IMG/VR virus record: IMGVR_UViG_3300017763_000217
Coordinates: 1 to 22,861 of that record
Direction: 5' to 3' (one strand)
Source: a virus
Length of the DNA: 22,861 bases
In this document: positions 10,986 to 16,077 of the stretch, one piece after another
Position numbering within the stretch: the stretch's first letter is position 1
How the letters are laid out: each line of letters opens with the position of its first letter
Made by a program: the position numbers and the translations under genes
The notes under the pieces: model-generated
What the model was told of the DNA's origin: nothing
Seen by the model: the letters and a program-made list of their open reading frames with translations, nothing else
Databases searched by the model: none

Positions 10986-11903
10986 ATGGCTATTTCAAGA
11001 GCACAACTAGCTAAAGAGCTAGAGCCGGGTCTGAACTCGCTTTTCGGCATGTCTTACGACAGTTATGACCGCGAGTACGAGGAAATCTTTGCTATTGAAG
11101 ACTCACAGCGAGCCTTTGAAGAAGAGGTTTTGATCACTGGTTTCGGTGGAGCACCGACCAAAACTGAAGGCCAAGGCGTACAATTCGACAACGCTTCTGA
11201 GTCTTATACCGCTCGTTACACGCACGACACCGTTGCGTTGGCTTTCGCTTTGACCGATGAGGCCGTAGAGGACAACCTTTACGACTCACTGGGCAAGCGA
11301 TATGTGAAGGCTTTGGCCCGATCTATGGCTAACACCAAGGAAGTAAAAGGCGCTGACGTACTGAACAATGCGTTTGACGCAAACTTCACTGGCGGTGACG
11401 GCGTTACATTGATCAACACGGCACACCCTCTAGCGGGTGGCGGCACTGCTGCAAACCGTGCGGCTTCAATGGCTGACTTGAACGAAACGTCTTTGGAAGA
11501 TGCGTTGATTGATATCAGCACATTTACCGATGACAAAGGTCTAACGATCTCTGTTCAAGCCACCAAGCTGGTTGTTCCGCCTCAGTTGACGTTTGTTGCT
11601 GACCGTATCCTGAACTCAACTTTGCGTTCTGGTACTGCCGACAACGACATCAACGCTGTACGCAACACGGGTGTATTGCCCGGTGGTTACACGGTAAACC
11701 ATTACCTGACTGACCCTGATGCGTTCTTCTTGCTAACCAGTGTTACTGACTCTGGCGAAGGCTTGAAGATGTTCCAGCGAACAGGCATGGAAACCACGAT
11801 GGAGCCAGACTTTACGACTGGTAACATCCGTTACAAGGCCCGTGAGCGTTATAGCTTCGGCTTTAGTGACTGGCGCGGCATCTACGGCTCACAAGGCGCG
11901 TAG
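10986..11903 (+). CDS. Major capsid protein (HK97-fold type)
   Basis: A 305-aa protein that would form the icosahedral shell. The N-terminus (AISRAQLAKELEPGLNSLFG) is helical. The central part has VLITGFGGAPTKTEGQGVQF, then TDEAVEDNLYDSLGKRYVKA (spine-helix-like), then TLINTAHPLAGGGTAANRA. The last third includes VQATKLVVPPQLTFVADRIL and ends GFSDWRGIYGSQ. The TAHPLAGGGT segment and the FSDWRGIYG ending are characteristic of Mu gpT-like/HK97-fold major head proteins as I recall them. The size (~33 kDa) is normal. It follows scaffold and decoration-like genes and has the best ribosome site here. A strong terminator 15 nt downstream ends the head transcript. Confidence 0.9.
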   Translation: MAISRAQLAKELEPGLNSLFGMSYDSYDREYEEIFAIEDSQRAFEEEVLITGFGGAPTKTEGQGVQFDNASESYTARYTHDTVALAFALTDEAVEDNLYDSLGKRYVKALARSMANTKEVKGADVLNNAFDANFTGGDGVTLINTAHPLAGGGTAANRAASMADLNETSLEDALIDISTFTDDKGLTISVQATKLVVPPQLTFVADRILNSTLRSGTADNDINAVRNTGVLPGGYTVNHYLTDPDAFFLLTSVTDSGEGLKMFQRTGMETTMEPDFTTGNIRYKARERYSFGFSDWRGIYGSQGA

Positions 11904-11917
11904 ATACCAAGCAAAAG

Positions 11918-11943
11918 AAAGGGGGCATAAGCCCCCTTTTTTT
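11918..11943. terminator. Intrinsic terminator, probably bidirectional
   Basis: A perfect 9-bp stem, AAAGGGGGC / GCCCCCTTT, closes an ATAA tetraloop and runs into seven T residues on the + strand, 15 nt after the capsid stop. Read on the minus strand, the same stem is followed by TTTCTTTTG, a reasonable T-rich tail, and lies just past the end of the convergent minus-strand gene. It should therefore stop transcription from both sides. Confidence 0.92.
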
Positions 11944-11950
11944 GTGCCGC

Positions 11951-12451
11951 TTACGCGGCCTCCGTTCTGTTTTCTTTCTCTTTCCGTATGCGGCCAATTA
12001 GTATGAAAGCCTGTATCGAAGCCCTGTTTGCGCGATCCGCCTTCGGAGCAAACTCGCTGGCTGCACCCAGCCTGTCGAAATGCTCTTCTGCTGCCAAAGC
12101 CAGAGTGCGAATTGCGTCAAGCTGATCTTCGGTCAGGTTGCTCACATCCATGTCCGCAATCCGGTTAGCTGGGTTAGGCTTCTCGACCTTGACCACACCG
12201 TCAGTGATGCGGCCCATGTTCGTTGGCGTACCGTTCAGCGGTGGAAAGGCGCGCTCGCCTTCTTCAAAGTCTCTCTCGACACCATCGAAGACTACCCGCG
12301 TTGCTTTGATGTCAAATCTCATGCAGCCCTCTACTTTGGTGAAGCCTTCTACGATGCCTTCGATGAAGCAGGCGTCTGGCGCGTCGATGTCGCGGTGCGT
12401 TGGGAAATCAAAGCTGCGTACCTTGTCGCCAATGTTGATGTCGTTAGTCAT
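11951..12451 (-). CDS. Conserved minus-strand phage protein (SFDFP family), unknown
   Basis: A 166-aa protein, the only gene on this strand. An upstream in-frame start at 12565 is unlikely because the promoter candidate lies inside that extension; ATG 12451 has GGAG 9 nt ahead. The N-terminal half is a conserved block: DINIGDKVRSFDFPTHRDID, ACFIEGIVEGFTKVEGCMRF, IKATRVVFDGVERDF and PPLNGTPTNMGRITDGV. I recall it as a small beta-rich family encoded on the opposite strand in many marine phages. The C-terminal half is helical and charged (NLTEDQLDAIRTLALAAEEH, later RIRKEKENRTEAA). Function unknown; separate promoter and terminator suggest expression at another time than the structural genes. 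Confidence 0.8.
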   Translation of the reverse strand: MTNDINIGDKVRSFDFPTHRDIDAPDACFIEGIVEGFTKVEGCMRFDIKATRVVFDGVERDFEEGERAFPPLNGTPTNMGRITDGVVKVEKPNPANRIADMDVSNLTEDQLDAIRTLALAAEEHFDRLGAASEFAPKADRANRASIQAFILIGRIRKEKENRTEAA

Positions 12452-12460
12452 ATCATCATT

Positions 12461-12464
12461 CTCC
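12461..12464 (-). promoter_or_regulatory. Ribosome binding site fixing the minus-strand gene start
   Basis: GGAG on the minus strand lies 9 nt before the ATG at 12451. A nearer ATGATG pair between them is out of frame and stops immediately. The site supports 12451 rather than the far upstream in-frame start. Confidence 0.65.
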
Positions 12465-12479
12465 GTTGTTATGGCCCTA

Positions 12480-12507
12480 ATTATACAGATCCCGTGTCTA
12501 TGTGCAA
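12480..12507 (-). promoter_or_regulatory. Sigma70-like promoter for the minus-strand gene
   Basis: On the minus strand, a perfect -10 TATAAT (12485-12480) is preceded by a weaker -35 TTGCAC (12507-12502) with a 16-bp spacer. Transcription would begin near 12473, leaving a leader of about 20 nt that contains the GGAG site. The exact -10 and the spacing make this the best promoter candidate in the window; the weak -35 suggests possible control by a bound protein. Confidence 0.65.
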
Positions 12508-12518
12508 CTATGTATACA
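12498..12518. promoter_or_regulatory. Operator-like repeats over the minus-strand -35
   Basis: Two adjacent 10-bp units, CTATGTGCAA (12498) and CTATGTATAC (12508), match at 7 of 10 positions and share CTATGT, so they sit one helical turn apart. The second merges into the palindrome TGTATACA (12511-12518). A second GTGCAA copy occurs at 12526. The repeats cover the -35 region of the minus-strand promoter. Binding by a regulator is inferred from layout only. Confidence 0.4.
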
Positions 12519-12558
12519 CGCAAAAGTGCAAATAATTGAACTTTTTTTTGGCGGGTCG

Positions 12559-12586
12559 TTGGCATACACTGAGGATCTGAGATAAA
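12559..12586 (+). promoter_or_regulatory. Candidate forward promoter for the tail/connector transcript
   Basis: TTGGCA (12559-12564, 5 of 6 to the sigma70 -35) is followed after 16 bp by GATAAA (12581-12586, 4 of 6 to the -10). A start near 12592 would put the leader hairpin at the very 5' end of the RNA. A promoter is expected here because the upstream transcript ends at 11918-11943 and a long same-strand gene block follows. An alternative -35 (TTGAAC, 12536) has poor spacing. Confidence 0.45.
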
Positions 12587-12590
12587 TCCA

Positions 12591-12633
12591 GCCCCGGCGA
12601 CTGGCTCAGCAGACGTTACGAAGACTCTGGGGC
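12591..12633 (+). promoter_or_regulatory. Structured 5' leader hairpin of the virion protein gene
   Basis: GCCCCGG (12591-12597) can pair with CTGGGGC (12627-12633) as a 7-bp stem with one G-T wobble, closing a 29-nt loop. Directly after it, CGAA/TTCG (12633-12636 with 12641-12644) can form a second small hairpin around TCCT, 1 nt before the AAGAGG ribosome site. The structure could stabilise the message or tune initiation. No known riboswitch class is recognised. Confidence 0.4.
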
Positions 12634-12645
12634 GAATCCTTTCGT

Positions 12646-12651
12646 AAGAGG
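12646..12651 (+). promoter_or_regulatory. Ribosome binding site of the GPVRS virion protein
   Basis: AAGAGG lies 7 nt before ATG 12659 and immediately after a possible CGAA/TTCG hairpin. It confirms the start of the first gene of the downstream transcript, and its accessibility could depend on the leader structure. Confidence 0.65.
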
Positions 12652-12658
12652 TAATACC

Positions 12659-13168
12659 ATGTCACAGACAACATTTTCAGGCCCAGTCAGATCGCTGGGC
12701 GGCTTCATCACCGCAGGCGTAAATAGCAGCGTCAGTCTGTCCGCAGACACCACGCTGACCGTGGCGGCTCATGCTGGCAAGATCATTCTGCTCAACGACG
12801 CAGACGGCAAGTTTACTTTGCCATCAATTGTCTCCAGCACCCCCACAGATCCCACGTCGCCTAACCAAGACAACAACATTGGTGCGTCTTTTTTCTTCTA
12901 CATTGAGACCGCTGCAACTGACTTGGACATCCTCACCGATGGCACTGACAAGTTCAAAGGCGCAGCTATGGTTGCTGTAGATGACAGCACTAAAAAAGCT
13001 TTCTTCCCAGCCGCAGCAAATGACGTGATGACTTTCAACGGCTCAACCAAAGGCGGTTTGGTCGGAAGCGTCATTCAGGTAACGGCAATCGACACTGCCA
13101 GCTACCTCGTTCATAACACTTTGTTGCTTGGTTCAGGAACGATTGTTACGCCTTTCGCTGACGCTTAA
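12659..13168 (+). CDS. Virion structural protein (GPVRSLGGF family), possible decoration protein
   Basis: A 169-aa, Ser/Thr/Ala-rich, probably beta-sandwich protein. The N-terminus SQTTFSGPVRSLGGFITAG is a pattern I recall from a widespread marine-phage virion protein encoded shortly after the major capsid gene. Later segments include AAHAGKIILLNDADGKFTLP, GASFFFYIETAATDLDILTD and GSVIQVTAIDTASYLVHN. There are no membrane segments or cysteines. As first gene of a transcript with a dedicated leader and an AAGAGG site, it is probably made in quantity. A role in decorating or stabilising the head is plausible; tail attachment is the alternative. Confidence 0.72.
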   Translation: MSQTTFSGPVRSLGGFITAGVNSSVSLSADTTLTVAAHAGKIILLNDADGKFTLPSIVSSTPTDPTSPNQDNNIGASFFFYIETAATDLDILTDGTDKFKGAAMVAVDDSTKKAFFPAAANDVMTFNGSTKGGLVGSVIQVTAIDTASYLVHNTLLLGSGTIVTPFADA

Positions 13169-15189: not shown

Positions 15190-15551
15190 TGGCTAGTGAT
15201 GTACCAAAGAACGTAGCGAACCCTTCTCTTTACAAAAAGGCAAAGGCGAAGGCAAAGGCCAAGTTTGACGTTTACCCAAGCGCATACGCCAACGGTTGGA
15301 TGGTACAGGAGTACAAGCGAATGGGCGGAGAATACAAAGGCGCTACAGGCGGTGAGGTGACTCTCGACCCGAAGAAAAGCGATCTTAACAATGACGGTAA
15401 GCTAAGCGGTTACGAGCGCAAGCGCGGCACTGCAATCGCCAAGAGCATGGCAAAGAACATGAACGGGGGCGGAACTGTAATGGTTCAAGGCCGTGGTTGT
15501 GGTGCTATTATGCCAAGCAAGCAAAAGAAAACGAGAGTACCTCGTGGCTAA
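15189..15551 (+). CDS. Cationic protein with an EF-hand/dockerin-type calcium loop
   Basis: A 120-aa basic protein, its ATG overlapping the previous stop (TAATG). The N-terminus has NPSLYKKAKAKAKAKFDVYP, and residues ~31-50 (SAYANGWMVQEYKRMGGEYK) resemble a small conserved phage domain. Residues 65-76 form a canonical calcium loop (DLNNDGKLSGYE) with D65, N67, D69, G70, S73 and E76 at loop positions 1, 3, 5, 6, 9 and 12. The C-terminus has a Gly-rich stretch with one cysteine (VQGRGCGAIMPS) and a basic tail. Similar proteins occur in marine phages as far as I recall, without a role. The loop could stabilise a small virion protein. Confidence 0.65.
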   Translation: MASDVPKNVANPSLYKKAKAKAKAKFDVYPSAYANGWMVQEYKRMGGEYKGATGGEVTLDPKKSDLNNDGKLSGYERKRGTAIAKSMAKNMNGGGTVMVQGRGCGAIMPSKQKKTRVPRG

Positions 15552-16077
15552 GCCCAGAAGCGGACTCAAGAAATGGTTTGGTAAGGGCAAAGGTGGCAAC
15601 TGGGTTGACATCTCAGCGCCCAAAGAGGGCGGCGGCTTTGAAAAGTGTGGGCGTAAGAGTGCCAGCGATTCTGATCGCGGTTACCCTAAGTGCGTACCCG
15701 CAGACAAAGCCGCTAACATGAGCAAAAAGCAGATTGCTTCAGCGGTTAGCCGCAAGCGGTCAAAGAAACAGGGTGTTGGTGGAAAGCCTACCAATGTCGC
15801 AACTTTCGCTAAAGACGGAGGCGAGATTATGAAGAGCAAGATGGGTACGAAAGGCGGCGCAATGGGCGGCAAAAAAAATATGATGATGCCCGGCGGCATG
15901 AAGAAGGGCGGATCAGCCATGAAATCCAAAGGTATGGCTAAAGGTGGTGCCATGAAGACTAAGGGCTACGCCAAAGGCGGTGCCATGAAATCTAAAGGTA
16001 TGTCTAAAGGCGGAGCAGCTAAGGGCGGCATGAGAAAGCCTTCTAGCAAGAACAGTGGTCTATATGGCCGCAGCTAG
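15544..16077 (+). CDS. DUF5872-like cationic protein with K/G/M-rich repeats
   Basis: A 177-aa protein. The frame is open from 15493, but GTG 15544 (8-nt overlap with the previous gene, GAGAG upstream) gives the expected N-terminus AKPRSGLKKWFGKGKGGNWV. Residues ~1-90 resemble DUF5872: DISAPKEGGGFEKCGRKS, then YPKCVPADKAANMSKKQIAS, with paired cysteines, and NVATF at the end. From ~residue 98 the chain is almost only Lys, Gly, Met, Ala and Ser, including tandem KGGAMKSKGMA-type repeats. The DUF number is from memory. Such a positive, flexible tail could neutralise DNA or bind the capsid interior; function unknown. Confidence 0.65.
   Translation: MAKPRSGLKKWFGKGKGGNWVDISAPKEGGGFEKCGRKSASDSDRGYPKCVPADKAANMSKKQIASAVSRKRSKKQGVGGKPTNVATFAKDGGEIMKSKMGTKGGAMGGKKNMMMPGGMKKGGSAMKSKGMAKGGAMKTKGYAKGGAMKSKGMSKGGAAKGGMRKPSSKNSGLYGRS
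15904..16020 (+). repeat. Tandem 33-bp coding repeats (K-G-G-A-M-K-x-K-G-x-x)
   Basis: Units begin at 15904 (36 bp, one extra codon), 15940 (33 bp), 15973 (33 bp) and 16006 (partial), encoding KGGSAMKSKGMA, KGGAMKTKGYA, KGGAMKSKGMS and KGGAA. The units differ at synonymous positions (AAA/AAG, GGT/GGC, TCC/TCT), so the peptide repeat is older than any recent DNA duplication and is probably kept by selection. Confidence 0.8.

Follow-up and report, generated by a model that had tools for sequence, protein, structure and literature searches.

Why should a block of structural genes that leaves almost no space between its members be interrupted by 755 bp? This question is raised by the IMG/VR virus record IMGVR_UViG_3300017763_000217, analysed here as one stretch of 22,861 nt (the window), in which the interval between the capsid gene (stop codon at 11901-11903) and the gene starting at 12659 is by far the largest gap, the next largest being 22 bp. 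A first-pass annotation had already remarked on this contrast and described the interval as a divergent control island, which would keep the transcription of head and tail genes apart and isolate a gene of probably different timing. The elements that it listed were found again: a perfect hairpin terminator 3′ of the capsid gene (-23.7 kcal/mol, z -5.1), the sole minus-strand gene of the window, a divergent gap of 207 bp (12452-12658) and a TATAAT box on the minus strand (Table 1). It overlooked that the forward unit has a structured RNA leader and that the minus-strand gene is optional and mobile. Based on comparison with relatives, we consider it probable that the junction is a two-part module, composed of an optional moron on the opposite strand and a pseudoknotted leader RNA that would control the translation of a probable decoration gene.

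Table 1. Features at the junction between the capsid gene and the gene at 12659 (window coordinates).
Feature	Position	Strand	Remarks
Major capsid protein gene (MCP), Mu gpT-like, 305 aa	10986..11903	+	PHROG 371 major head protein, E 3e-27; annotation of relatives
Hairpin terminator of the capsid gene	11918..11943	both strands	Stem 11918-11926/11931-11939, T-run to 11943; conserved
Hairpin GCCGC-GTAA-GCGGC	11946..11959	-	TAA stop of the cargo gene in the loop; fold z -3.8
Cargo (moron) gene, 166 aa	11951..12451	-	ATG at 12451, stop at 11951; start supported by relatives
Candidate promoter and leader of the cargo gene	12452..12485	-	TATAAT 12485-12480; leader end AACAACGGAGAATGATGAT before the ATG
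-10-like box TACACT of the forward unit	12565..12570	+	Six bases before the RNA; 4/6 vs. TATAAT
Structured leader RNA	12577..12651	+	Covariation; crossing helices, strands running a b a′ c b′ c′
Helix a, CTGAG/CTCAG	a 12577-12581, a′ 12605-12609	+	
Helix b, GCCCCGG/CTGGGGC	b 12591-12597, b′ 12627-12633	+	
3-bp helix CTG/CAG around a′	12601-12603 with 12610-12612	+	
Helix c, TTACGAA/TTCGTAA	c 12616-12622, c′ 12641-12647	+	
Shine-Dalgarno GAGG	12648-12651	+	Directly 3′ of c′
Next structural gene, probable head decoration (cement) protein, 169 aa	12659..13168	+	N-terminus MSQTTFSGPVRS

Relatives of the locus were fetched with the capsid protein and with the product of the 12659 gene. The capsid relatives are annotated as major capsid protein or Mu-like gpT; a PDB sequence search with the window's capsid protein gave no meaningful match. 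Among the 82 loci holding both flanking genes, some of them duplicates, 57 have a gap of at most 211 bp and no minus-strand gene. The closest view of such an empty site is given by L095 and L097, in which the capsid (98% identical to that of the window) and the next gene (99%) are separated by 173 bp, with the terminator followed at once by the forward leader. In other near relatives the site is filled differently, by a minus-strand gene of 116 aa (L106) or 278 aa (L014) or by two minus-strand genes (L098, L100, L101, L103). The replacement genes have their upstream sequence in common with the window, from the -10 box through the leader that precedes the ATG, and one candidate promoter and ribosome-binding leader are thereby shared by unrelated cargo genes. 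Relatives of the window's own minus-strand gene are found in other settings at 63-76% identity; in a 52-kb contig (G016) the capsid gene, 90% identical, lies near 14 kb, and a 75%-identical cargo relative near 37 kb, approximately 22 kb apart. Empty sites, replacements and the distant copy together make the gene fit a phage moron: it is inserted between genes that are adjacent in relatives with flanks 98-99% identical, its place is taken by other inserts or by none, and it ends at a terminator, the 11918-11939 hairpin, which is common with the capsid gene rather than private. These comparisons show the minus-strand gene to be optional cargo, absent or replaced in close relatives. Since it is missing from most relatives, which have the terminator and leader RNA only, the interval is not a dedicated divergent control island. 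With its near-identical empty sites, the slot documents how genes are gained, lost and exchanged in a natural series.

The cargo protein itself consists of two exchangeable parts, a low-confidence beta-rich one (about residues 1-88) and a helical one (about 95-166), which occur apart in relatives. No match to it was found in INPHARED, PHROGs or Pfam, and its AlphaFold model (pLDDT 58) was too poor for a fold search. The gene ends in a GC hairpin carrying the stop codon in its loop, as cargo genes at these loci commonly do. Among the fetched loci, 16 of 19 distinct hairpins with a GTAA loop sit on stops of long reading frames, and stop-codon hairpins are also built with the alternative stems GGCCGC/GCGGCC and GGCGGC/GCCGCC. 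This hairpin may aid the exchange or protection of small accessory genes. A stop-in-loop GC hairpin was seen as well at the cargo genes of L004-L012, L098, L100, L101 and L103.

The terminator that follows the capsid gene, AAAGGGGGC-ATAA-GCCCCCTTT (11918-11939), has a perfect 9-bp stem and is kept in relatives with stem changes, as the proposed comparison of the interval among related phages made clear. Its reverse strand also folds (-21.7, z -4.1) and has a T-rich tail, suggesting that it may end transcripts from both sides; it is likely also the terminator of the minus-strand transcript, and a consensus terminator scanner listed this hairpin on the minus strand only. The candidate promoters for both directions are a more mixed case: the boxes are present and conserved or enriched in relatives, but they do not reach sigma-70 consensus strength. 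A generic sigma-70 scan of the divergent gap gave no passing match, so the promoter calls rest on conservation in relatives, and promoter-like matches in the region were not in excess over shuffles. On the minus strand, TATAAT is kept with the cargo cassette in several contexts, with no convincing -35. On the plus strand, a hexamer agreeing with TATAAT at five or more of six positions stands just upstream of helix a in 73 of 159 relatives vs. 18 of 159 in a control interval further upstream. A forward start at 12592, as first proposed, would fall inside helix b of the conserved RNA; the position of the -10-like box, six bases 5′ of that RNA, speaks rather for a start near 12575-12577. A good -10 box is lacking from about half of the related leaders, indicating that the RNA is independent of a promoter of its own, and in many of these helix a comes straight after a GC hairpin. 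Separate transcription units, supported in the window by the terminator, the minus unit and the forward start, are therefore not general across related leaders.

Between the -10-like box and the ATG at 12659 relatives keep structure rather than letters. Using a search pattern in which the core letters and part of a′ were fixed and a and b left free, we obtained at least 120 matching viral stretches, and the RNA is present, with strong compensatory change, in about 160 distinct viral sequences. The sample is biased to this RNA class, since for many loci the query was either the RNA pattern itself or the next gene. By eye, it is present also in DSL-LC04 and in the cultured Pelagibacter phage HTVC023P. 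The unpaired letters of the core, GAC..CAGAC..AAGAC, are invariant. Within 163 distinct core-anchored instances, a:a′ forms five of five pairs in 161 and b:b′ at least 5 bp in 161, as compared to means of 72 and 64, respectively, in shuffles that swap pairing partners among sequences and in which relatedness remains. All five pairs of helix a and all three of the small helix are standard in every one of 113 distinct trimmed rows; one position of helix a occurs as GC, AT, TA and CG, and positions of helix b show up to four Watson-Crick types. For 56 diverse rows, 94.3% of cells are paired vs. 72.7% after shuffling, with 228 double changes vs. 64.7 and a covariation score of 0.663 vs. 0.228, which drops to at most 0.188 when the partners are slid by one base. 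Loops were cut for this pair count because the first MAFFT alignments, made with variable loops, put helix a out of register, and pairs were counted instead of using a covariance model because the key helices cross.

Both main helices are formed in all 113 viral pattern matches listed vs. 7 of 105 in bacterial genomes, a scan that gave mostly chance matches and was used as a control; at least four of these seven precede the same kind of phage gene. Four marine bacterial genome-bin contigs (L340, L361, L368, L404) carry the leader RNA together with an FSGPV-type gene, and they are probably misbinned phage contigs or prophages. Folded without crossing helices, the window leader reaches a minimum free energy that does not surpass that of shuffles (z 0.6); a hairpin at the Shine-Dalgarno, the 3-bp helix and helix b do appear in its unconstrained fold. 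As judged from the covariation shown above, helices a and b and the 3-bp helix belong to essentially all members and helix c to about half.

A search of Rfam (Rfam 15) with the window and ten relatives gave no match at gathering score at the leader. Rfam RF03012 (Mu-gpT-DE) occupies the same place in some relatives, with 72 bits in CRP-902 and 71 bits in L054; searched at E up to 10, its covariance model matched nothing in the window, and a scan of 12540-12680 was equally negative. No description of this leader was found in the literature, within a partial coverage. The leader represents a well-supported structured RNA family that Rfam lacks; it occurs frequently among marine phage contigs and is tied to one virus-assembly step, so that the balance that phages strike between capsid and decoration protein becomes directly testable. 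A third leader type, a simpler hairpin, is found in some relatives. In L024, L027, L042, L047 and L412 a hairpin and GGTTC...GAGAAC around the Shine-Dalgarno lie 3′ of the capsid gene, and this third type precedes a different structural gene starting like MTTHFTSGVTNVG. In loci L015 and L412 the capsid gene and the second gene after it are retained, with another leader and another gene between them, so that a leader apparently travels together with its gene. With at least two other leader types at the same place, this gene seems to need control through its RNA, although the means of control can be exchanged. The 65-kb viral contig G020 (L413, L414) has two capsid genes of the family, 61% and 60% identical to that of the window, and a Mu-gpT-DE-like leader after one of them.

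The RNA precedes genes that start like MxxTTFSGPV and have otherwise unrelated bodies. An FxGP-type start is present in 149 of 161 downstream proteins and a close variant in most others, and the bodies, 136 to 313 residues long, form 41 dissimilar groups. A cement protein is annotated in DSL-LC04 at the place equivalent to 12659, which makes a decoration role likely: from its position and this one relative's annotation, 12659 probably encodes a head decoration (cement) protein. The same annotation renders the proposed split of head from tail transcription doubtful, as it is probably not tail genes that begin here. BLAST with the window's 12659 gene did not recover the DSL-LC04 cement protein, and its product had no match in PHROGs, Pfam or PDB sequences, including solved cement proteins (cyanophage Pam1 type); its AlphaFold model (pLDDT 50) was too weak for a fold search. 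Further along the structural block, positions 15493-16077 encode a predicted protein ending in many Lys/Gly-rich repeats (MKSKGMAKGGAMKTKGYAKGG).

What the leader might do is suggested by its 3′ end. In 80 of 160 leaders c:c′ forms at least 6 bp adjoining the Shine-Dalgarno, and in 52 of the other 80 a local Shine-Dalgarno hairpin scores at least 5, vs. 22.5% in shuffles. The window leader could form both c:c′ and CCTTT/AAGAGG, the latter appearing in the nested fold. Because of this pairing at or beside the Shine-Dalgarno, we hold control of translation of the decoration gene to be the likeliest function, and the leader probably acts on 12659 in this way. Transcription would start at or near helix a, folding of the RNA would set the access of ribosomes to the decoration gene, and the decoration protein, whose copy number has to match that of the capsid protein, would appear in the right amount or at the right moment. 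The most likely route, which we put forward only tentatively, seems to be a switch of the Shine-Dalgarno between free and paired, driven by feedback or competition. The decoration protein as the trigger of such feedback is a guess, and it is doubtful that surplus, unassembled decoration protein binds the pseudoknot through its TTFSGPV arm and represses its own translation. If it does, self-repression would explain why exchange affects the protein body and spares only the RNA and the N-terminal arm; the leader would represent a new class of phage leader RNA, switched by a decoration protein.

Other readings of the interval have to be set against translational control. The leader could govern how stable the RNA is or how it is processed, instead of the access of ribosomes, with its 5′ end protected or created by cleavage of the capsid transcript. 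In promoter-less relatives the RNA closely follows a hairpin, so that transcripts must either read through or be cut, and helix a would stand at the 5′ end of the mRNA; yet the conserved pairing beside or over the Shine-Dalgarno points to translation, and we hold this alternative to be rather unlikely, if deserving of some weight. The idea of a divergent control region built into the phage family, with head and tail transcription separated and a specially timed minus-strand gene, draws on the terminator, the TATAAT, the opposite strand, the large gap and the enrichment of the forward -10-like box in relatives. However, it is partly refuted by the empty sites and replacements in close relatives, the next gene is probably a head protein, and about half of the related leaders have no good -10 box, some with a GC hairpin before helix a; we regard it as unlikely.

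Compact crossing helices with invariant unpaired letters would also suit a metabolite riboswitch or a self-cleaving ribozyme. This is improbable, as the RNA is bound to one gene position in one phage group, not to any metabolic pathway, and matches no riboswitch or ribozyme of Rfam. Least probable is an element acting as DNA, a recombination or packaging site: although leader and gene are swapped as a unit in L412 and L015, the paired changes across crossing helices, the one fixed orientation and the end at the Shine-Dalgarno all speak for RNA.

Translational control by a pseudoknotted leader has a precedent in T4 gene 32, whose 5′ leader contains an autoregulatory pseudoknot. The window leader resembles it in kind, as a pseudoknot 5′ of a phage gene with a probable role in translational control. 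Like Mu-gpT-DE, reportedly described by Weinberg in 2017, it follows a gpT-like capsid gene and lies between it and the next structural gene. The Mu-gpT-DE model, in contrast, has 53 positions and two nested helices, whereas the window leader has another core and crossing helices. For the minus-strand gene the closest parallel is pid of phage P22, which is divergently transcribed in the late region, has a 3′ terminator and occupies a site that is empty or otherwise filled in relatives (PMC3573128); the window cargo, too, sits between late genes, antisense to its neighbours, with a 3′ intrinsic terminator. Unlike pid, cargo genes of the window type are preceded by one common -10 box and leader, and their 3′ end is a hairpin that carries the stop codon. 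Short regulatory sequences flanking exchangeable small genes, as found here, are also said to characterize the promoter-stem-loop cassettes of T4-type phages reported by Arbiol et al. in 2010. Unlike those cassettes, the hairpin at this junction straddles the stop codon, and the promoter is single and lies upstream of the cargo.
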